From a bacterium (GTDB taxonomy: Bacteria > Electryoneota > JAOADG01): a stretch of DNA of 64,000 nucleotides. The position numbers and the translations under genes are program-made. This document shows positions 3,439-57,684 of this stretch, piece after piece (within the stretch, counting starts at the first letter, position 1; every line of letters begins with the position of its first letter). The stretch is from NCBI GenBank assembly GCA_026417415.1, contig JAOADG010000004.1, forward strand, positions 1 to 64,000, in the 5' to 3' direction. A model generated the notes under the pieces. The model had not been told where the DNA came from and searched no databases. It worked only from the letters and a program-made list of their open reading frames with translations.

Positions 3439-4755
3439 GTGGTAAAATTGATCCAAAATATGTATAACTTTAGTAATTTCCTTGTGTTATGCGGTCTTTT
3501 TGGAGTGCTCCTTGCGACTCCAACAACCCTATTTGATGTGCAAGCCCAGGAAAGCACCTTTCAAGCGAACGAAGATGAAGTCCAACGACTCCGTGAGGAA
3601 ATCGCCAAGCTACAAAGTGAAATTGAAGCGGCTAAACGTGCACAGATGGACCACACTGAAAAATTAGCCATTACAGAAGCAAAGTTAAAACAAATCCAAA
3701 AACTAACTAAAGAATTGAATCAATTGCTTTCGTTAAACATTAGTCAACTGAAATCCATTCATAAAAATCAAACATTGATGCAAAGTGATATTGAAGTGTT
3801 AGAACGACAGTTGAAAAATGTCCAAATCAAAATGTCTATGTTGCAAGCAGTGGTGCGCGAACAAGCAATACGAACCTACAAACATCGTAACCTAAAAAAA
3901 TGGATGTATTTGATTTCCACTACCAATTTGCAGAAAGCACTGAAACGTGCCAGAATGTTAGAACAAGTAAGAAGATATGAAGCAAGATTGTATAACGAAT
4001 TAAAAACAGAGCGACAACAATACCATTTAGCACAAGCGTTATTGATAGAACAGTACAATGAAATTATGGTATCCTCGCGCTCTACGAAAAAACAAGTAGA
4101 ACTAGCTCAACGTAGAAAATCAGAATTAGAAAACGAACGTAAACGATTAGAATCTGAAATGAATAAATCAAAAATTGAAATCACAAAAAGTAGAGAGCGT
4201 ATTGAACAACATCAACGTGCCATCAAGGATAGACAAGCCAGTTTGCGAGAGATTGAAAACATCATTGCAAAACGTGTGAAAGAAAATGAAATCAAAAAAC
4301 AACAGCAAACCACATTGCCTCTTTTATCTAAACAAGAATCGACTGTAGGAAAAGCGCTAACTGCAGGAAATTTGTCTTGGCCCGTACGAGGTGAAGTCAT
4401 TTCTCAATTTGGAATTGTGCGTGATCCAATGTACAATACCCAAATTGAAAATCCGGGCATTGAAGTGCGTGCAGAACCGAATACACCTGTCCGCGCAGCG
4501 GAAGATGGTAGAGTGATTACTGCAACTTGGATGAGAGGATTTGAATCGATTATCATTCTTGAACATCCTGAAAATGGATTTACCGTGTATTCGCGGTTAG
4601 GTGAGATTCATGTTAAAATTGGAGAGGTGGTGAAAAAAGGTCAAATTATTGGAAAGGTTGCTTATCCTAAAGAAGGCGAACCATCCAAGTTCCATTTTGA
4701 AGTGTGGATTCAACGTTCTAAAAAAAATCCGTTAAACTATTTGGAACCCAAATGA
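3439..4755 (+). CDS. EnvC-like murein hydrolase activator, coiled coil plus M23 domain
   Basis: Signal peptide, long coiled coil, C-terminal M23/LytM fold (SWPVRGEVISQFG...GIEVRAEPNTPVRAAEDGRV...FHFEVWIQ). Canonical HxxxD appears altered, consistent with an EnvC-type activator. Confidence 0.85.
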   Translation: MVKLIQNMYNFSNFLVLCGLFGVLLATPTTLFDVQAQESTFQANEDEVQRLREEIAKLQSEIEAAKRAQMDHTEKLAITEAKLKQIQKLTKELNQLLSLNISQLKSIHKNQTLMQSDIEVLERQLKNVQIKMSMLQAVVREQAIRTYKHRNLKKWMYLISTTNLQKALKRARMLEQVRRYEARLYNELKTERQQYHLAQALLIEQYNEIMVSSRSTKKQVELAQRRKSELENERKRLESEMNKSKIEITKSRERIEQHQRAIKDRQASLREIENIIAKRVKENEIKKQQQTTLPLLSKQESTVGKALTAGNLSWPVRGEVISQFGIVRDPMYNTQIENPGIEVRAEPNTPVRAAEDGRVITATWMRGFESIIILEHPENGFTVYSRLGEIHVKIGEVVKKGQIIGKVAYPKEGEPSKFHFEVWIQRSKKNPLNYLEPK

Positions 4756-12158: not shown

Positions 12159-13472
12159 ATGAACTGGACAGAAGCAACTCTGAGATTTTTTTCCTTTCAA
12201 GACATCAACGTCCAAACTGTGGTCATAGGATCCATTCTATTGGGCGGTTTAAATGGATTGGTAGGTGCTTTTTCCGTATTAAAGAAACGAGCTTTAATTG
12301 GAGATACCATTGGCCATGCGGCTTTACCGGGAATTGCCCTTGCTTTTCTACTTACCCACGGAAAATCCACCATTAGTTTACTTTTAGGTGCGATAGTTAC
12401 AGGTTTAGCAGCAGTATGGGTCGTTTCTAAACTGCAAAACATCCCCAAAATCAAACAAGATGCTGCTTTAGGACTAACCCTTACGGTCGCTTTTGGTATC
12501 GGGGTGTTGCTGTTATCCCATATCCAACGATCCAATACTGGCAACCAATCCGGCTTAGATAAGTTTCTCTTTGGACAATCTGCCAATCTGGTCACAACGG
12601 ATGTTGTACAGATTGGAATTCTAACCATACTTGTGATTGCTACGGTAATCCTATTTTACAAAGAATTTTCACTCATTGCTTTCGATCGAAATTTTGCTCA
12701 TTCCATCGGTTGGAATGCTCATCGAATTGATATGGGGCTGCTTTTACTGACGACTCTAACCATTGCGATTTCACTACAGGCAGTAGGCGTAGTGCTAACC
12801 TCGGCAATTTTAATCATTCCATCTGCTGCAGCAAGATTTTGGACGGACCGTCTTTCAAATTTACTTGGGCTTGCTTCTTTATTTGGTATGATTAGCGGAT
12901 TAACGGGCACTTACATAAGTTTTATGGTCAAGAATATGCCGTCGGGTCCACTCATCGTTTTATCTGCTTTTGGTTTATTTCTTGTCTCCATATTGTTTGC
13001 TCCTAAAAAAGGGATCTTGGCAAAAGTTTTCCGTAAAGCGCAAAATCAAAAGAACATGGCTTGCGAGCATTTGTTGCGAGCATGTTGGGAAATCAATGAA
13101 AACCAAACAAATCCAATCCGTCAAAATATTCCCTTCAAGAATCTTCAAATGCAGCGTACATGGCAAAAAGGAGAATTGTCCAAAGCAATAAAAGTTGCGA
13201 ACAAGAAAGGGCTAATCACTTTGTCCAAAGATGGTGTTCAATTGACACCCAAAGGGGTGCAATTATCCAAAAAGGTGGTTCAATTGCATCGTTTATGGGA
13301 AAAGTACCTCATCCAAACTGCCCAATTCAAAGCCACTCACATTGAAACAGAATCTGATCTAATGGAACACTATCTTCCAGAGCACGTTCAAACTGAACTT
13401 GAGAAAGAAAATGTAGAAGATGTCGTGCCAGCATCACCGCATCCGATCATTCCGAAGCAACCTTCTGTTTAG
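12159..13472 (+). CDS. Metal ABC transporter permease fused to C-terminal DtxR/MntR-like regulator domain
   Basis: Residues ~1-290 match the ABC-3 metal permease family (LLGGLNGLVGAFSVLKKRALIGDTIGHAALPGIALAF); residues ~300-425 match DtxR-type wHTH plus dimerisation region (LTPKGVQLSKKVVQLHRLWEKYL...DLMEHYLPE). Confidence 0.88.
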   Translation: MNWTEATLRFFSFQDINVQTVVIGSILLGGLNGLVGAFSVLKKRALIGDTIGHAALPGIALAFLLTHGKSTISLLLGAIVTGLAAVWVVSKLQNIPKIKQDAALGLTLTVAFGIGVLLLSHIQRSNTGNQSGLDKFLFGQSANLVTTDVVQIGILTILVIATVILFYKEFSLIAFDRNFAHSIGWNAHRIDMGLLLLTTLTIAISLQAVGVVLTSAILIIPSAAARFWTDRLSNLLGLASLFGMISGLTGTYISFMVKNMPSGPLIVLSAFGLFLVSILFAPKKGILAKVFRKAQNQKNMACEHLLRACWEINENQTNPIRQNIPFKNLQMQRTWQKGELSKAIKVANKKGLITLSKDGVQLTPKGVQLSKKVVQLHRLWEKYLIQTAQFKATHIETESDLMEHYLPEHVQTELEKENVEDVVPASPHPIIPKQPSV

Positions 13473-48346: not shown

Positions 48347-49075
48347 ATGATGCTGATTGAAGTGGTAACCCTTTTTCCGGAAATGGTAGATGTCGTTTTG
48401 AAAACCAGCATTTTAGAACGTGCTGAAAAGTTTTCCAAGGTTGAGTATCGTGTCCATAACCTTAGAAAATGGGCAAAAGGAAAACACTTGACTGTGGATG
48501 ATGTCCCATTTGGTGGAGGTGCGGGAATGGTACTAAAACCGGAGCCACTATGTAATGCAGTGGATGAATTAAAGCAACAAGCATTCAAATCGGGCTATGA
48601 ACCTTATGTAATCTTTCCGTCACCGGATGGAGTATTATTTTCTCAAGAACGTGCAATCCAACTTGCAAAACGAAAATATCTTTTGTTTATTTGTGGTCGC
48701 TATAAAGGTGTAGATGAGCGATTTCGGCAGACACGTGTGGATGAAGAGATAAGTATCGGAGATTATGTTCTTTCGGGTGGTGAACTACCAGCACTGACCA
48801 TTATTGATGCAATCGTACGATTACAAGAAGGTGTGTTAACAGATTTTGAATCTGCCACGGTAGATAGTTTCTACCAAACTCCTTTACTTGATTGCGCATG
48901 GTACACGAGACCTTGGGAGTTTGAAGGACTTACACCACCAGAAGTATTGAAGAGTGGTAATCACAAACAAATTGATGAATGGAGACAAAAAAGTAGAGAA
49001 GAAAAAACCAAAGCAAGAAGACCCGATTTGTGGGAAAAATGGTTAGAATTACAGAATAAAAAGGAAGAGGATTAA
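48347..49075 (+). CDS. trmD: tRNA (guanine-N1)-methyltransferase
   Basis: [64 protein letters not shown] at 48347 preferred. Confidence 0.96.
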
Positions 49076-49076
49076 A

Positions 49077-49493
49077 ATGAGTTTTCAATATGCTGTGACG
49101 TCAAGCCAAATGAAAAAAGTACAAGACCTCCCTAATTTTCAAGTAGGTGACACAATTGTGGTGTATGTACGCGTAATTGAAGGGGACAAAGAGAGGTTGC
49201 AAGCATTTCAAGGAACTGTGATTAAAAAACGTGGGATAGGAACTTCTGCTACCTTCACGGTTCGAAAAATTTCAAATGGTGTTGGTGTAGAGCGGATTTT
49301 TCCACTTCATTGTCCTTCTATTTCAAAAATAGAAATCGTCAAGCATGCTAAAGTGCGGCGTGCGAAGCTGTATTATTTACGTGGATTAACTGGAAAAGCC
49401 ACTCGGCTAAAAGAGAAAGCAAGAAAAGTGGAAGTTGTCATTGAATCTACACCAGAGGTCAATGAAACCACTGAAGAGAATGTGGTCAGTTAG
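49077..49493 (+). CDS. rplS: 50S ribosomal protein L19
   Basis: [58 protein letters not shown]. Confidence 0.97.
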
Positions 49494-49529
49494 CCGTTCT
49501 TTGAGAACTGTATAGGAATTTTTCTTTCT

Positions 49530-49647
49530 TAAACCAAACAACAGCGAAGTCGGTGAGAATCCGACACTGCCCCGCAACTGTGATTGGTGTATGCCATAAG
49601 TCAGGTCGCCTGTTTCATCAAACGTAACCTCCGTGGGGAGGGAGACG
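49530..49647 (+). promoter_or_regulatory. Cobalamin riboswitch with SD-sequestering hairpin
   Basis: Core matches the cobalamin consensus: AGCGAAGTCGGTGAGAATCCGACACTGCCCCGCAACTGTGAT...GCCATAAGTCAGGTCGCCTG; followed by CCTCC-GTGG-GGAGG hairpin covering the SD of the next gene. Confidence 0.9.
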
Positions 49648-50238
49648 ATGCCTAAAGAACTTCAAACCGCACAAACCAATGAACTACCGTTTCAATCCGT
49701 TGCACAGATTGCACAAATTGGTGTATGGTCCGCTGCGGTAGCCGCAGTGGGATATTTATTTTCGTTTATTCCTAACGTAGAAGCAGTTACCTTTACAACC
49801 GCATTAGCAGGAGTATTCTTAGGTCCAATCAATGGGGCTATTGTGGGTGGAATTGGAATCGCGATTTATTCTTTGTTCAATCCGTGGGGTTTTCCACCTA
49901 TTCTACTGTTATTGGTTCAAATGGTAGCAATGGCTTCTATTGGTGGAATTTCTGGAATACTAAAAAGGTTCATACCGCATCGCATTCATTTCAGAATTCT
50001 TTTTTGGGGTGTTGTAGGTTTAATGGGTTCATTGTGGTATGACCTCTTGACTACACTGATTACTCCATTTTTAGCAGAAATGCAAGGACAATCGCTACTT
50101 GTGGTACTCGTTGCACAAATTCCCTTTACTGCGGTTAAAGGTCTTGCCAATATTATCCTCTTCGCATCACTGTTTGATCCACTGCGTTTGCGGATTGAGA
50201 AGATACGACAGACCTCGTTGACTATGAGGCACAAGTGA
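49648..50238 (+). CDS. ECF-type transporter S component, predicted cobalamin- or precursor-related
   Basis: About 6 hydrophobic segments; AALAGVFLGPINGAIVGGIGIAIYSLFNP pattern typical of ECF S components; directly under the cobalamin riboswitch. ATG at 49648. Confidence 0.78.
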   Translation: MPKELQTAQTNELPFQSVAQIAQIGVWSAAVAAVGYLFSFIPNVEAVTFTTALAGVFLGPINGAIVGGIGIAIYSLFNPWGFPPILLLLVQMVAMASIGGISGILKRFIPHRIHFRILFWGVVGLMGSLWYDLLTTLITPFLAEMQGQSLLVVLVAQIPFTAVKGLANIILFASLFDPLRLRIEKIRQTSLTMRHK

Positions 50239-52235
50239 AAACCCGATGGTATTTTTTTGGTATCTGTTTTCTTTTTCAGGTTTTTGGTGTACTATCGTAT
50301 TCAAAAGAAATACTTGAAAAAAAATCTCCCGAATCAAAAGACACCGCGAAAACAATACAACTTATAGATACCGTTCGATTGGATACAAGACCCCGTGTAA
50401 AAACTCGGGCAAACACTTTGCTCAATCGTGATACAATTTTGAAAGTCCCATATTCGTTTACAGTTTTTACTCAAGATTCGCTTCCATTTCAAAATCGCTT
50501 TTCATCCATTGAAATCGCACCAACGCATGAGCGTTCAATGGTCGATGCGAGTCACCATTTGGTAGGTATTTTCCCTTATGATTTAGGTGTTTATGGTCAA
50601 CCTTCCGTATTAGCAAATCCAATTGATCCACATCAAATCCAATGGATTGCATTTGAAAGAGAAAATAACGATCCAATCCATTTTAGAACCTCCTCAGAAT
50701 TAATCTCAGTAAGAGGATTGAATTACGCATGTTATAGTTTGTTTGAAGATGCGAACAATGTGATCTACGCAGAACCACTGATTTATAATCCGAAACACCC
50801 ACTCCTCAAAGTAGATTATAGAAATGGATACTATGCGTTAGGAAGAGCAGATGTACGTTTTTTTCAACCGATTTCTGAAGCAACGCGGTGGGGTTTTGCT
50901 ACAACTGTTTCACAAGGTGATGGACGATATTTAGGTGCTGATGTGAATGAAACCAATTTGTTTTTTCATTACCGCTATCTCCCAAAAGATAAAATCCATT
51001 GGTTTCTCAATGTTAGACAAAATCAAGAAAAAAATGGTGTTGCTTTTCGTAGTGCAAGAGATAGGAGTGAACAACGATATGATCTTGATCTTGCGATTCG
51101 ATCACCGCAGCGATATTTGGATTTAGATTCTACTTCTACCACTTCTTCGGATAACTTCTTTGTACATCAAGTATTCAGATGGAGGTTCAATTTTTTTTGG
51201 ACTGTAGTAGAAAGAAGGTGGTTCCGTAATCCGTATGCTGTTGGTAGAAGATTGGGGGCAAAAGGACGCATTACCTTACCAACCACGTTTGGATCTTTTT
51301 CGTTCATCAATTCATATCAAACGTTATCAGCACTATTACCCAATCGTGGCAAGCATCCATTCCATCTGAATGAAGCGTGTTTGCAATATGAAAGGGATGC
51401 CCCTTTTCGTTTCACGTTAGCAAACCACCTCTGGATTTCAAAACAATATCAACCGAAATACACGTTTTCATTGAACACATCCTTTGCTTGGTTCTCCAAT
51501 TTGGAAAGCACGGTATCGTTTTCACAGAACATTCGCTATCCATCGTTTGAAGAGCGGTATTCATGGATCAGTGAACCGATTCTTGAACGATCCTTTGACA
51601 AAGTACTCTATTTACAAAACCCAAATGTTCCTTATATTGGAAATCCAAATTTATCACCGGTTCTTTCCAATCAATTGGCTTTTGCAACGCACTGGTATAA
51701 AAATCATCATTTGAAGATTCATCTTTACTCTGCTTGGATAAATACTCTACACTCAATTCAAACTCAATATGTATTAGACACTTCAGCAACAGGGTATTTT
51801 ACTGCTATTCAAAGTTCCTCGGTTCAAAATTACAAGGTATTTGGAACTCAGTGGACTTCCAAAATTGATGAAAAATTTTTTTTCAATGGAACGATTAGTA
51901 GTGTTTTGGATCCAAATCGTAAAAATACCTTTGTACCTGACGTATGGGGTTTCGTGGATTTCGGGTTTCAAGATGCTTTTCAGGGAGATGCTGCAGATTG
52001 GCAAGGTAGAATTCGAATCAGGCATATAGGCGAAAGATATTGGTACAACGATCATAGACCTACCATTCATCCGAGAGTAACCCCTATTGATCTTTTATTT
52101 TCAATACGGATTTATTCCTTGCGCATCAATTGGGGAATATCCAATTTTGCACGCGAGACATATGAAGTGTTGCCCGGTTATCCTTGTATGCACCGTGAAG
52201 AAGTCTGGGGTGTGAATTGGAACTTATGGGATTAA
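50235..52235 (+). CDS. TonB-dependent-receptor-like outer membrane beta-barrel, divergent plug
   Basis: Signal peptide; aromatic-rich amphipathic strands; receptor-like VSFSQNIRYPSFEERY...IGNPNLSPVLSNQLAFATHWYKNH; GTG start overlaps the upstream stop. Confidence 0.7.
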   Translation: MKTRWYFFGICFLFQVFGVLSYSKEILEKKSPESKDTAKTIQLIDTVRLDTRPRVKTRANTLLNRDTILKVPYSFTVFTQDSLPFQNRFSSIEIAPTHERSMVDASHHLVGIFPYDLGVYGQPSVLANPIDPHQIQWIAFERENNDPIHFRTSSELISVRGLNYACYSLFEDANNVIYAEPLIYNPKHPLLKVDYRNGYYALGRADVRFFQPISEATRWGFATTVSQGDGRYLGADVNETNLFFHYRYLPKDKIHWFLNVRQNQEKNGVAFRSARDRSEQRYDLDLAIRSPQRYLDLDSTSTTSSDNFFVHQVFRWRFNFFWTVVERRWFRNPYAVGRRLGAKGRITLPTTFGSFSFINSYQTLSALLPNRGKHPFHLNEACLQYERDAPFRFTLANHLWISKQYQPKYTFSLNTSFAWFSNLESTVSFSQNIRYPSFEERYSWISEPILERSFDKVLYLQNPNVPYIGNPNLSPVLSNQLAFATHWYKNHHLKIHLYSAWINTLHSIQTQYVLDTSATGYFTAIQSSSVQNYKVFGTQWTSKIDEKFFFNGTISSVLDPNRKNTFVPDVWGFVDFGFQDAFQGDAADWQGRIRIRHIGERYWYNDHRPTIHPRVTPIDLLFSIRIYSLRINWGISNFARETYEVLPGYPCMHREEVWGVNWNLWD

Positions 52236-54145
52236 GTTCAACAAAACTGCTGTGGATCGTTTTAATCTGTTTTAATTGGCTGCAAGTTGCATTTTCTACA
52301 GAAACCATAGATACTGTAAAATTTCCTACCTTAATGGTTCAATCAAAAAGAGGTTCGCCATTTCTTATTGATACTTCAAAATCAAAGTTAGATTTTTCCA
52401 AAGTATCAGGTATTTCCTTACGACAATACGGTACAGGTATGCCACTTTACCTTTCACTTTTAGGTGCCTCCATTTATGATACTCGTGTAGTTTACGGTTC
52501 TATTGAATGGAATGATCCAAGAACCAATGTGGCCAATATCCAAGAAATCCCTTATTGGAAATATCGTGAGGTGTCCATTGAGATGGATGAAAAAAGTGCA
52601 GTTCAAGGCGGAACGCTCATTATTTCACCACAAGATCCAATGACCTTTAGAGGTTTTGAAATTCAGCAATCTTATACTTCCAATGGCGAGAGAAAGTGGA
52701 AGGGTTTATTTTCATTAGATAAAAAGTTTTCAACAGGAATTAGTATAGAGGATGAACGTAAACCAAAAGGGAAATACCCTACCATCTATAGCAACGATAG
52801 AGCAAACTATGTCGGTTATGAAAAGACATCTATCTATTTTATACAATCCTTTTCCGTGAAAGGTTTACCTCTACAATGGCAATGCTTTGCATTCAAGCGA
52901 CGAAACGATATCCCGGGCTTGGTAGGGCGTGCTATAGAATCTGAAACCAAATCCAGTAAACAACAATTTCGAACCATTGTTAGTTTGAAAAAGTATTTGG
53001 ATGTGAGTATTTCTTACGTTTTAGATAAGGTTAATTTTATTAGACCTCAATATCAATTTTCTCCGAGTGGGCCTATTCCTTTTACACCATTTCACGAAGA
53101 AAGCAAAAGAAAAGGATATGCAATCACTCTCCAAAAAGAGGTATTAATACAGAACAAGTTGCTTTGGAAAAATCAATCATCTTTTCAGTCCGATGAGGTT
53201 GTGTTTCAAGATTATTATCTTTTACCTGAATTTCAAAACAATATAACCGATAGAAAGATCTTTACTTCCAACCATGGAATTCGTTTTTCTCAGCAAATAG
53301 GAAAATTTTCCATTCGGCATCATCCTCAGTTTACTTATTTGCATGCGTATTGGAGATCCCATGCTAAGACCTATCATGCGATCTATCCTTCGTATTCTTT
53401 AGAGTGGCAACCTTTCTTAAACGTGACACAAACTAGCCGAATAGGCATTTCCCATCGTCTCCCATCTTTACAGGAATTGTTTTTAACCAATACTATTTTT
53501 TCCAAGGGTAATCCGAATTTACTACCGGAAGAATCAAAAGAATTTCAAATGGAGTTTCGTTATGAACCCAATCCATTTTTTTCTACAACAATGCTTGGAT
53601 ACTACCGTTTAGTTAACAACGGAATTGTTTGGAAAAGAAATTCACGTGGTCAATATACACCTTACAATTCGGCTAAAATCAAATCCGTAGGGGGTGTATT
53701 AACTCAGGTGTTTCAATTCCATCGGAATGGTCAGTTGAGTCAATCTTTTTCGTTAACAGACACAAAAAATAATGATCCAAAAGATATCAACTATCAAAAA
53801 CAGATCCCGTTGATTCCTAAGTTTCAAGCATCTACCAACCTTACCTTAGGTTGGGAAGTACCCTTGAAACCGAAGGTAGAAATTAGTTGGTTTTATCAAT
53901 CAAAACGACATTTTCTTGAATCCAATACAGAATTTCTATATCATTCAAAGAATCGTTTACCAGAAGAGTCAGTTGTAAATTTAGGTATTCATATTCAACC
54001 ATCTCTAAACACGGATGGAACTTCAATTTATCTCTCTATTGAAAATATTTTTCAAAAAGAAAGATGGTGGATGGAAGGTGTACCGAACCAAGGCAGATTA
54101 TGGAAATTAGCGTTTGTATGGAACAATATTCAGGAGGTTCAATGA
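52226..54145 (+). CDS. TonB-dependent receptor-like outer membrane protein (BtuB-like context)
   Basis: Signal peptide; plug-like VSGISLRQYGTGMPLYLSLLGASIYDTRVVYGSIEWNDPRT; barrel motif SHRLPSLQELFLTNTIFSKGNPNLLPEESKEFQMEF. TTG at 52217 is an alternative start. Confidence 0.75.
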   Translation: MGLSSTKLLWIVLICFNWLQVAFSTETIDTVKFPTLMVQSKRGSPFLIDTSKSKLDFSKVSGISLRQYGTGMPLYLSLLGASIYDTRVVYGSIEWNDPRTNVANIQEIPYWKYREVSIEMDEKSAVQGGTLIISPQDPMTFRGFEIQQSYTSNGERKWKGLFSLDKKFSTGISIEDERKPKGKYPTIYSNDRANYVGYEKTSIYFIQSFSVKGLPLQWQCFAFKRRNDIPGLVGRAIESETKSSKQQFRTIVSLKKYLDVSISYVLDKVNFIRPQYQFSPSGPIPFTPFHEESKRKGYAITLQKEVLIQNKLLWKNQSSFQSDEVVFQDYYLLPEFQNNITDRKIFTSNHGIRFSQQIGKFSIRHHPQFTYLHAYWRSHAKTYHAIYPSYSLEWQPFLNVTQTSRIGISHRLPSLQELFLTNTIFSKGNPNLLPEESKEFQMEFRYEPNPFFSTTMLGYYRLVNNGIVWKRNSRGQYTPYNSAKIKSVGGVLTQVFQFHRNGQLSQSFSLTDTKNNDPKDINYQKQIPLIPKFQASTNLTLGWEVPLKPKVEISWFYQSKRHFLESNTEFLYHSKNRLPEESVVNLGIHIQPSLNTDGTSIYLSIENIFQKERWWMEGVPNQGRLWKLAFVWNNIQEVQ

Positions 54146-55206
54146 AATGGCTTCTTTTGGTTCTGTTCTGGATTAGTTTTGTGTTTCTTGGTTGCACGGG
54201 TAGTGGGCCAGATATTATTGAAAATGTTGGCATACCCGGTGCAAGAGATTATTTGTTAGTAGTCAATGAGTTTTCAAGAACGCTTAGTGTTTTAGATTTA
54301 GAACAAGGTAGATTTTGGAACGCAAATACCAGTTTAGAATCAACACCAAATCATTTGATACGCAGACCTAATACAGATGAATACTGGGTTTTGCATTCCG
54401 ATATTGCAAAAATTTATCGTTACCGCTTTCGTGCGGACACTTTGAACATTCCTACCTTTTTAGATGAAATTCCGTTAATTCAAGCAGGTGAAAACCCAAA
54501 TCCATACTTTCTGGCTTTTTCTAATGATGGTAGATATTTCTATACCACCAATTGGTTGGACCATACGGTTAGTCGTTACGAGGTTGCTACAGGTATTCGT
54601 GAATCGAGAATCTATGTAGGTGAACATCCTCAAGGAATTGTTGTTTTACCCAACAACAATTTGGCAGTGACCATTACTGATTTTAGAAGCACTCGTCAGT
54701 TTGGAATAGGTGAAGTAGTAATAGTAGATAGTTTGGTAACAGATACTTTGAAAAGAATTACTGTGGATAAGAATCCACAAACCATAAAACTTCATAATCA
54801 AGTGTTGTACGTGGTCTGCACAGGAGATTTTGCAAATCATACGGGTAAATTATGGAAATTGGATGCAAATACTTTTATTCCACTTGCAACACCGATTTCA
54901 TTTCAAGCATATGTTTCTGATTTAGCCATCGTAGAAGATTCTACCGGAGTGTGGGGCTACTTACCTGCATGGAGTATGGATCAAAATGCATTGGGATCCA
55001 TTCAAATCGTGAGATTAGATACTTGGCAATATGATGGATATGTGGCGGTCAATGGTGGTCCAATTCGAGTGTGTTCATTACCTTCTGGTGGTGTTGCGGT
55101 GTCATTGATGGAAGCCGATCAAGTCATTGTGAAAAGTAAAAATAGAGATTGGGTGCGATTGACTGTAGGCGATGGTCCATCTTCTATCTTAGCAGTACCT
55201 AAATAA
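54142..55206 (+). CDS. Surface/periplasmic lipoprotein with YncE-like beta-propeller
   Basis: Lipobox FVFLGC; propeller-blade repeats (YLLVVNEFSRTLSVLDLEQG, YFYTTNWLDHTVSRYEVATG, HPQGIVVLPNNNLAVT, NPQTIKLHNQVLYVVCTG). SD AGGAGG; ATG at 54142 overlaps the upstream stop. Confidence 0.82.
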   Translation: MKWLLLVLFWISFVFLGCTGSGPDIIENVGIPGARDYLLVVNEFSRTLSVLDLEQGRFWNANTSLESTPNHLIRRPNTDEYWVLHSDIAKIYRYRFRADTLNIPTFLDEIPLIQAGENPNPYFLAFSNDGRYFYTTNWLDHTVSRYEVATGIRESRIYVGEHPQGIVVLPNNNLAVTITDFRSTRQFGIGEVVIVDSLVTDTLKRITVDKNPQTIKLHNQVLYVVCTGDFANHTGKLWKLDANTFIPLATPISFQAYVSDLAIVEDSTGVWGYLPAWSMDQNALGSIQIVRLDTWQYDGYVAVNGGPIRVCSLPSGGVAVSLMEADQVIVKSKNRDWVRLTVGDGPSSILAVPK

Positions 55207-55209
55207 AAA

Positions 55210-57684
55210 CTACCAAGATTTTGGGCGATAGGAAGCAATAAACAATGCAGTTAAACTGCTTATGGGCATCAAAATTGCTGCTACTAACGGACGTATATTG
55301 CCAGTAATGGCTAAACTTGCGCCTACAAGGTTATAGAAAAAAGCAACACCTAAATTGAAGTAAATTCGCTTCATAGTTTTTCTGGAGCTCTCAAGCAATT
55401 TCACAATCAGTTGAATCGCTTCTCGAATCAGAAAAACATCTGCAGCATCTCTGGTGATTTCTGCAGAATGGGCTGCACTTACACCACAATCCGCCGCAGC
55501 TAAAGCAGCAGCATCATTGACACCATCACCAAACATTAACACCTTTTTACCTTCACTTTGTCGCTGGAGAACGAGTTGCAATTTATCTTCGGGTTGAACT
55601 TGGCTATGGAAGTTGGTGATTCCCAACTCCTTTGCAACGCGAGCAACTGCAGAGTGGCTATCACCTGACACAATTTCTAATCCGTAACCCAATTGAACCA
55701 ATTTTTGAACTGAACTCAAAGCGTCTTGACGGATTGTATCCCCTAAAAGGATGAGTAAGGAAAGTTTTTTGTTCACTGATACCCAAACGGGTATAAACGG
55801 TTCTACTACGGATTGGTATTGTTTTTGAATTTCTTTTGTTTGTTCTATACTCATCCCTTCCGTGACAAATTCAAACGAACCGATTGATAGTTCATAATCC
55901 TGCTGCTGATGATATACCTTTCCCCAAACACCTTTGCCAACGATATGGCGAAGTTCAATGAATTGATGGTTTTGAGTTTTCAATTTGGATAATGCTTTTC
56001 CGATCGGGTGAACTGAAGTAGATTCCATATCCGCAACAATCTTAAGCAGTTCATTTTTTTCTATAGGAAAAGAAGAATCCAGTTGGATTACCTCTTGAAT
56101 TTGTAACTCGTTATGGGTTAAAGTTCCTGTTTTATCCAATAACAAGTGGTTGACTTTTGCAAGTCGTTCCAAAGCGGTAGGATTTTTTAGAAAGACACCA
56201 TGTTTTGCATAAAAACCGATTGCCACAGCAAAAGCGACAGGCGTTGCAATTCCTAATGCACAAGGACAAGTCACCACCAACATCGCAACTGCATGCCACA
56301 ACGCCGATTGTGGTTCAATAAAAGACCAGATGAATACAGTCAAAGCAGTTAAAAATAAAACTGCAAGAACAAACCAATGTGCGATACGATCCGTAACGAT
56401 TGCTAATGGTGCTTTTTCTAAACGTGCTTTTTGCATTAAGTCGGATAATTTAGCAATACGAGTATTCAGTCCAACCGCTTGGGTTTGGATTACAAGATTT
56501 TTTTCAAATACCATTGAACCTGCAAACACAGGATCGTTTTGTTGGACTCGCACGGGAAGTGATTCACCAGTTAATGATGCTTGTGAAATGTACCCCTCGT
56601 TGGATAATACAATACCATCAATAGGAACAACTTCGTTTGCATACACAACGAGATGATCACCAACGCGCACTTCATCAAGTGGTTTATCAATAATTTCATG
56701 ATTCGTTTGTACGTGAACCAACTTAGGCATGGAGTCCAAAAGAGAAACTCCTGCTTCTGTAGCCCAACGGTTGGCACGCACGTTGACATAGCGACCAATC
56801 AGCAATAGAAAAACAAACATCGTAGTAGAATCGAAATACACTTCGTTGCGATTTTGGAAGGTAGCATAGGTACTGGCAATAAAGCTCAAAATGATGCCCA
56901 GTGAAATTGGTAAATCCATTGTAGGAATTTGATTGCGGATACCTAACCAAGCACCTTTGTAAAATGGAAATGCTGAGTAAAAGATGACGGGTAACGCTAA
57001 GCCGAAACTAATCCATCTAAACAAGGTTGCAAATTTTTCTTCAATTTGACCATACTCTCCACTATAGAGAGCAAAAGCAAGCAGCATAATATTGCCTGCT
57101 CCTGCACCGGCAATCCCTATTCTGATGAGCAAATTGTGCTCAGATTTACGTAATGCAGTAGGAGTATTTTCTGAAATAGGATACGGTGGGTAACCAATCC
57201 GATCCAATGCTTTAGCAAAAGCACTTAATTGGTGAGTTTGTGGGTTGTACACCAGGGTCACGATTCTACGACCAAGATCTAACCGTGCAGAGATTGCACC
57301 TTCGCGTTCCATTAAAATTTTTTCAATGAGCCAAGCACAAGCAATGCAATGAGTTCCCTCAACAAACAACTCAACTTCTAAATAGCCACCTGCAAGTTTG
57401 CGAGCAATTCGTTGTAAAAAAATTGGATCATCATATCCTGAATAATCTTTTCCACTGACTTTTGCTGGAACACCTTGTCGTTCATCAAGCTCTTGTTTTA
57501 ACCGATAGTATTCTTGCAAATTGCAACTTTGTAAAATTGTGTAAACGCTTGCACAACCACTGCAGCAGAATTCTTTATCTTGCTCAGGAACAATCTCACG
57601 AAATGCACCTATCAGTGAACTTGGGACAGGTGTACCACAATGTGAACAAAGCGTTGATTTCTGCATGGAGATTGGGTTTTCCAT
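55210..57684 (-). CDS. Heavy-metal (Cu-type) P1B-ATPase, CcoI/FixI-like
   Basis: N-terminal CSHCGTPVPSS...FCCSGCASVY domain, HMA motif GTHCIACAWLIEKIL, VVTCPCALGIATP, LLDKTGTLTHNE, MFGDGVNDAAALAAADCGVS. Confidence 0.94.
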   Translation of the reverse strand: MENPISMQKSTLCSHCGTPVPSSLIGAFREIVPEQDKEFCCSGCASVYTILQSCNLQEYYRLKQELDERQGVPAKVSGKDYSGYDDPIFLQRIARKLAGGYLEVELFVEGTHCIACAWLIEKILMEREGAISARLDLGRRIVTLVYNPQTHQLSAFAKALDRIGYPPYPISENTPTALRKSEHNLLIRIGIAGAGAGNIMLLAFALYSGEYGQIEEKFATLFRWISFGLALPVIFYSAFPFYKGAWLGIRNQIPTMDLPISLGIILSFIASTYATFQNRNEVYFDSTTMFVFLLLIGRYVNVRANRWATEAGVSLLDSMPKLVHVQTNHEIIDKPLDEVRVGDHLVVYANEVVPIDGIVLSNEGYISQASLTGESLPVRVQQNDPVFAGSMVFEKNLVIQTQAVGLNTRIAKLSDLMQKARLEKAPLAIVTDRIAHWFVLAVLFLTALTVFIWSFIEPQSALWHAVAMLVVTCPCALGIATPVAFAVAIGFYAKHGVFLKNPTALERLAKVNHLLLDKTGTLTHNELQIQEVIQLDSSFPIEKNELLKIVADMESTSVHPIGKALSKLKTQNHQFIELRHIVGKGVWGKVYHQQQDYELSIGSFEFVTEGMSIEQTKEIQKQYQSVVEPFIPVWVSVNKKLSLLILLGDTIRQDALSSVQKLVQLGYGLEIVSGDSHSAVARVAKELGITNFHSQVQPEDKLQLVLQRQSEGKKVLMFGDGVNDAAALAAADCGVSAAHSAEITRDAADVFLIREAIQLIVKLLESSRKTMKRIYFNLGVAFFYNLVGASLAITGNIRPLVAAILMPISSLTALFIASYRPKSW

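Follow-up and report, generated by a model that had tools for sequence, protein, structure and literature searches.

How does a bacterium with two membranes carry vitamin B12 across the inner one when it has a BtuB receptor in the outer membrane but no BtuFCD? Many B12-needing diderms are in this situation, and their inner-membrane step has been an open question (PMC6072759). The question is raised here by a four-gene operon in a stretch of 64,000 nucleotides (nt) of contig JAOADG010000004.1 (assembly GCA_026417415.1), from a bacterium of the Electryoneota lineage, which we refer to as the window. Based on sequence comparisons, this operon is very probably a system for the uptake of B12 (corrinoids) via a surface propeller, a BtuB-type receptor, and an energy-coupling factor (ECF) transporter of the CbrT type, controlled by a cobalamin riboswitch. 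The four genes, termed S, B1, B2, and P, follow one another in this order with successive overlaps of 4 to 10 nt, and the features of the locus are as follows.

49500-49631, + strand: cobalamin riboswitch aptamer RF00174 (score 45.7 bits, gathering score 31.5; E 2.9e-8 across the window)
49622-49646, + strand: putative expression platform with the hairpin CCTCC-GTGG-GGAGG, assigned from sequence and fold; the hairpin is identical in the nearest relative, L044
49648-50238, + strand: S, an ECF S component of CbrT type, 196 amino acids (aa), six helices, ATG start (assigned by PF12822, profile, and model)
50235-52235, + strand: B1, a divergent BtuB-family receptor with plug and barrel, GTG start within a GTGA overlap (assigned by profile A2 and model)
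52226-54145, + strand: B2, a BtuB-family TonB-dependent receptor, ATG start, 10-nt overlap with B1 (assigned by profile A3)
54142-55206, + strand: P, a BtuG-like YVTN/YncE beta-propeller lipoprotein, 354 aa, ATG start within an ATGA overlap, lipobox ending in VFLGC

An earlier note, made from the sequence alone, had read this locus as a cobalamin riboswitch followed by four open reading frames with overlapping junctions, encoding an ECF S component, two TonB-receptor-like barrels, and a beta-propeller lipoprotein, and it had proposed a B12-regulated operon pairing BtuB/BtuG-like capture with the S component. The frames were found where the note had placed them, the aptamer begins 30 nt earlier than it had proposed, and the riboswitch, the family profiles, and a conserved gene order all agree with the proposal.

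The aptamer passes the curated RF00174 threshold and contains the conserved core and the B12 box. Minimum-energy folding of the riboswitch was not better than that of shuffled sequences (z 0.69), and the evidence for it is therefore the covariance score. The 3' end of the aptamer enters the hairpin, the right arm of which serves the S gene (ATG 49648) as its Shine-Dalgarno sequence. Because this layout covers the ribosome-binding site, we infer translational control. A GTG at 49633 was rejected as the start of S, since a ribosome-binding site could not fit ahead of it. The loci L045, L050, and L053 of relatives have, when read by eye, an apparent rho-independent terminator 3' of the aptamer. 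Immediately upstream lies a ribosomal protein gene:

49077-49493, + strand: rplS (L19), an open reading frame and the conserved upstream neighbour in the synteny table

A consensus promoter scan of positions 49000-49500 returned no site. Since the riboswitch starts only 6 nt past the rplS stop codon, the operon is most likely transcribed from upstream, inside the rimM-trmD-rplS operon.

S was identified as an ECF S component by several approaches. In a single-sequence search it matched PF12822 over the cut-off (E 1.7e-7), and PF07155, the riboflavin S component, likewise matched. A profile (A1) built from 26 relatives found CbrT as the sole significant match in the Protein Data Bank (PDB) (6fnp_A, entry 6FNP, E 8.5e-9), the next match having an E-value of 0.67 and BtuM not being matched even at E 1. 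Judged by this profile, S is nearest CbrT among the S families of known structure. The S protein of the window contains no cysteine, and there is no invariant cysteine column across the 26 relatives. The AlphaFold model of S (pLDDT, the predicted local distance difference test, 91.9) has only S components as its top PDB folds, at a template-modelling (TM) score of about 0.6. The modelled fold confirms S as an ECF S component, settling the class and not the substrate. The fold search was rejected as a guide to the substrate of S, because S components for several substrates match without discrimination.

Both barrels were identified as BtuB-type from family profiles and, in the case of B1, also from a model. 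The single-sequence search with B1 gave no Pfam or NCBIfam match, and that with B2 gave weak receptor matches. The best PDB match of the B1 profile (A2) is BtuB1 (8blw_A, E 1e-12), and the eight best PDB matches of the B1 model (pLDDT 75) are Escherichia coli BtuB, with E-values of about 1e-21. The B2 profile (A3) matches BtuB3, BtuB2, and BtuB1 of Bacteroides thetaiotaomicron at 1e-59 to 3e-53 and E. coli BtuB at 3e-51. Among the relatives, B1 of L082 and B2 of L052 match the Pfam Plug and barrel families.

The two barrels differ at their N-termini. A TonB-box pattern was found in none of 20 B1 rows, versus 8 of 13 B2 rows; the pattern search misses the B2 row of the window, in which a box-like ETIDTVKFPTLMVQS follows the signal peptide when read by eye. 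In most relatives the signal peptide of B1 leads nearly straight into the plug, many proteins having no room for a TonB box. When B1 of L082 (8119-9873) is aligned with the solved chain of E. coli BtuB, residue 22 of the precursor falls on residue 22 of that chain, and the signal peptide therefore occupies the place of the TonB box. The B1 proteins of the window and of L044 have longer N-termini, and the stretch IDTVRLDT in the former is a possible TonB box. Thus, in almost all relatives B1 appears to keep the plug but to have no TonB box that can be recognised, the case of the window B1 being uncertain.

P carries the TIGR02276 repeat in a single-sequence search. Its profile (A4) matches BtuG1 in the PDB (8blw_B, 1.6e-22), and BtuG2 and BtuG3 at values down to 1e-9. 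The lipobox reads VFLGC in the window and LIGC in L044. The assignment of P as a BtuG-type propeller is probable, membership resting partly on context as a generic YVTN protein scores higher. A second cobalamin riboswitch of the same genome also precedes a propeller gene:

contig C38, 2463-2644: second cobalamin riboswitch (85.8 bits)

It is followed by a propeller with a type IX secretion system (T9SS) tail and by a 216-aa lipoprotein (L005:2463-4715; lipoprotein at 4065-4715). In L044 this propeller/lipoprotein pair adjoins the S operon, and in L074, L158, L159, L161, and L165 the propeller and the 216-aa domain form one protein. The lipoprotein family has no Pfam match, its domain being weakly LIC_13355-like, and the only PDB match of the domain is the BtuH part of BtuG1, which is weak (E 0.028). 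These matches are suggestive only of a candidate new cobamide-binding surface domain related to BtuH.

The gene order of the window recurs behind cobalamin riboswitches in many genomes, both within the phylum and outside it, which places the operon beyond chance. The full S-B1-B2-P order was found in the window and in L044, L052, L053, L073, L076, L078, L079, L082, and L088. S itself is present in 44 of 98 relatives, including 37 of the 38 same-phylum genomes (G001-G038); in another phylum, 63 of 82 genomes have it. One of the same-phylum relatives, G005 (locus L093), is Candidatus Tariuqbacter arcticus, placed by NCBI in Candidatus Electryoneota. In every one of the 17 S-bearing loci with rplS called, the window included, rplS precedes S on the same strand. 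A riboswitch precedes every S locus that holds B2 (15/15), and B2 and P are absent from all 12 S loci that have no riboswitch (Fisher 6e-8, uncorrected for relatedness). These counts were made by hand from tables, and for most loci the gathering threshold was the only one applied in the scan; the loci L146-L165 were checked only by a strict core pattern, which found one riboswitch. S overlaps or directly follows rplS in L056, L058, L059, and L061, where a riboswitch was not detected.

The most constant pair is S-B1, which is nearly always adjacent and is retained even without B2 and P; the genome G094 has riboswitch-S-B2-P without B1. S and a barrel form one open frame in seven genomes. Such frames occur in L055/L093, L078, L091/L147, L148, and L149, and one is partly seen in L146, where the contig end cuts it. 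In one genus (L150, L151, and L152, the last cut by a contig end), S is joined in the same manner to a B2-type barrel. The frames are located as follows.

L055:144-2438: S-barrel single frame
L078:7811-10114: S-barrel single frame
L147:5424-8231: S-barrel single frame
L148:575-3094: S-barrel single frame
L149:7092-9422: S-barrel single frame
L150:7299-10097: S-barrel single frame, B2-type barrel
L151:411-3209: S-barrel single frame, B2-type barrel

Every such frame has a hydrophobic stretch and a signal-peptidase-like site between the two parts, the signal peptide of the barrel being kept inside. Because this site is kept between S and barrel, the simplest reading would be that these frames yield two proteins after cleavage.

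Does the genome need B12, and does it encode partners for S? The assembly, 40 contigs totalling 2.2 Mb, has an estimated completeness of 100%. It encodes MetH, two methylmalonyl-CoA-mutase-type (MCM) sets with MeaB, and a PduO adenosyltransferase; apart from the B12-binding domain and PduO, the enzyme names were read from the sequences. Judged from these genes, the genome needs B12. CbiC was not found in the genome, nor was BtuC; BtuD and BtuF were not searched. One EcfT scores over the cut-off and lies beside truA. A tandem ATPase pair on contig C19 has EcfA features (TIGR04521, E 2e-36; TIGR04520, E 2.5e-28) and is the best candidate for EcfA/EcfA'. An ATPase pair on C9 was rejected as EcfAA', since it adjoins ABC-2-type export permeases. 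Apart from S, no S component of the genome was found to exceed the PF12822 cut-off; the BioY and ThiT families were not searched. EcfT was detected in 38 of the 44 S-positive genomes versus 27 of the 54 S-negative ones. EcfT and truA are again paired in L106, L107, L108, L113, and L114. Orphan EcfT genes beside truA (L006, L106, L107, L108, L113, and L114) occur across phyla with no EcfA adjoining, and tal, a DegQ-like protease, and purB/purC are often found in their surroundings.

The earlier note had stated that the window holds no BtuC/D/F and no EcfA/EcfT, which is right as far as tested. The sole FecCD-like match in the window, also the only one in the genome, was rejected as BtuC, being an ABC-3 permease in a Mn/Zn cassette (window 12159-13472); by eye, the C-terminal extension of this permease looks like a DtxR/MntR-type regulator domain. 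The note had also called for a genome search, which gave neither BtuC nor CbiC, one EcfT, and the candidate EcfA/EcfA' pair, and it had named, as one ground for refutation, a complete BtuFCD operon elsewhere with its own riboswitch. The genome showed nothing of the kind: no BtuC was found, and the second riboswitch precedes the surface propeller, not a BtuFCD operon. Only its idea of a solitary, BtuM-like S component was not sustained, as CbrT is the one significant match in the PDB, a cysteine is absent from the protein, and EcfT and a candidate EcfA/EcfA' pair occur in the genome.

These components suggest the following course of uptake, in which the substrate, the direction of regulation, the hand-over between the parts, and the partnership of S with the ECF subunits are what we infer. 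At high cobalamin, the riboswitch would close the hairpin over the ribosome-binding site, translation of S would drop, and that of the overlapping genes behind it would drop with it through coupling. At low cobalamin, P would capture corrinoids at the cell surface and pass them to B2, perhaps to B1 too, and the T9SS propeller of the second riboswitch locus would likewise capture corrinoids. Driven by TonB, the BtuB-type receptor would then import them into the periplasm. The CbrT-type S protein, with an ECF module encoded elsewhere (EcfT and the candidate EcfA/EcfA'), would carry them across the inner membrane in place of BtuFCD.

Several observations weigh against this reading. The best PDB match of P is the generic YVTN S-layer protein 1l0q (5e-36), and the structure search with S ranks RibU first, at weak E-values, without singling out CbrT. 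Riboswitch-free clades retain S, alone or with a barrel, and S may therefore not serve B12 everywhere. On the ECF side, the EcfT of the genome is divergent (38 bits), the C19 ATPase pair falls far below the NCBIfam cut-offs, and EcfT was not detected in six S-positive genomes. The S-layer match of P and the match of PF07155 to S could mean that P is an unrelated YVTN surface protein, that S imports another vitamin, and that the riboswitch reflects indirect regulation. We consider this highly improbable given the two BtuB-type barrels, the confinement of B2 and P to riboswitch operons among the loci compared, and the second riboswitch, which again precedes a propeller gene. An uptake of some other corrinoid-related compound (cobinamide, alpha-ribazole, or a B12 precursor) instead of complete cobamides is unlikely: CbrT does bind cobinamide besides cobalamin (PMC5997447), and sequence cannot tell these apart, but the BtuB- and BtuG-type parts indicate whole corrinoids, and a system for alpha-ribazole would have no obvious need of them.

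The remaining alternatives concern the partners of S and the role of B1. S could act independently of any ECF module, in the manner proposed for BtuM, while the EcfT- and EcfA-like genes of the genome serve another purpose. No EcfA or EcfT gene lies in or near the operon among the relatives examined, and the poor scores of the EcfA candidates and the gaps in EcfT detection fit such a case. However, S matches CbrT, which works together with EcfAA'T, and not BtuM; it has no cysteine for BtuM-style ligation; the orphan EcfT-truA pair is kept in several S-positive genomes; and in the genome of the window no other S component passes the PF12822 cut-off. A solitary S is thus quite unlikely. More weight should be given to the view that B2 and P alone form the B12 receptor and that B1 is a non-transporting, plugged barrel without a TonB box, acting as a scaffold or co-receptor, to which we would assign somewhat less than an even chance. 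It would account for the signal peptides running straight into the plug in many relatives, for the contrast in TonB boxes between the B1 and B2 rows, and for the genome G094, which dispenses with B1. The constancy of the S-B1 pair, kept without B2 and P and fused in several genomes, speaks against it, as does the long N-terminal stretch of the window B1 with its possible TonB box. The near-constant adjacency, the single frames with an internal signal peptide, and the apparent loss of the TonB box could instead indicate that S and B1 function as a single unit across both membranes, perhaps a physical one, in which B1 may be driven by S, or deliver directly to it, rather than depend on TonB; we regard such a unit as distinctly improbable. 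The preferred reading remains B12 uptake through the propeller, a BtuB-type receptor, and a CbrT-type ECF transporter.

Each part of this system is known, namely BtuB-BtuG capture, CbrT, and the riboswitch, and their joining in one operon is what appears to be new. The open-licence literature searched contained no report of the S-B1-B2-P combination in one operon in these phyla. As in the BtuB-BtuG systems of B. thetaiotaomicron (PMC6143338, PMC10404256, PMC12751083), a BtuB-type receptor and a propeller lipoprotein stand under a cobalamin riboswitch, and in relatives the propeller forms one protein with a second surface domain, as it does in BtuG1/BtuGH. Unlike in B. thetaiotaomicron, there are two barrels, a CbrT-type S component takes the place of BtuFCD, and the propellers often carry a T9SS tail instead of a lipid anchor. 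Similarly, the 216-aa family is fused behind a propeller elsewhere, as BtuH is in BtuG1 (PMC10404256), although, unlike BtuH/DUF4465 (PMC8941943, PMC13398666), it has no Pfam match, the relation being weak and unproven. The structure 6FNP is that of ECF-CbrT from Lactobacillus delbrueckii, in which CbrT works with EcfAA'T (PMC5997447). The S protein belongs to the same family by profile, and the genome holds a candidate ECF module; in contrast to L. delbrueckii, the host is a diderm, S shares one operon with outer-membrane receptors and a riboswitch, and the EcfA and EcfT candidates lie apart from each other. In BtuM of Thiobacillus denitrificans, a cysteine ligates the cobalt and the host lacks an ECF module (PMC6072759). 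Like BtuM, S is an inner-membrane protein of the S-component kind that goes with BtuB in bacteria lacking BtuCDF, but it has no cysteine in the window and its genome has ECF candidates.

The operon would thus combine outer-membrane components familiar from gut Bacteroides with an inner-membrane component familiar from lactic acid bacteria. For several candidate phyla it offers a concrete answer to the opening question, namely a CbrT-type ECF transporter that is connected, under a single riboswitch, to BtuB and BtuG. BtuG was called Bacteroidetes-exclusive, no homologs having been found outside Bacteroidetes in the gut-genome set of Wexler et al. 2018 (PMC6143338). The operon suggests that BtuG-style surface capture extends outside Bacteroidota, into little-known bacteria of the Fibrobacteres-Chlorobi-Bacteroidetes (FCB) group. 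The S-barrel fusions and the barrel without a TonB box make the coupling of the two membranes a testable question.

Downstream of P, a copper-type P-ATPase gene (window 55210-57684) converges on the operon across a gap of 3 nt.

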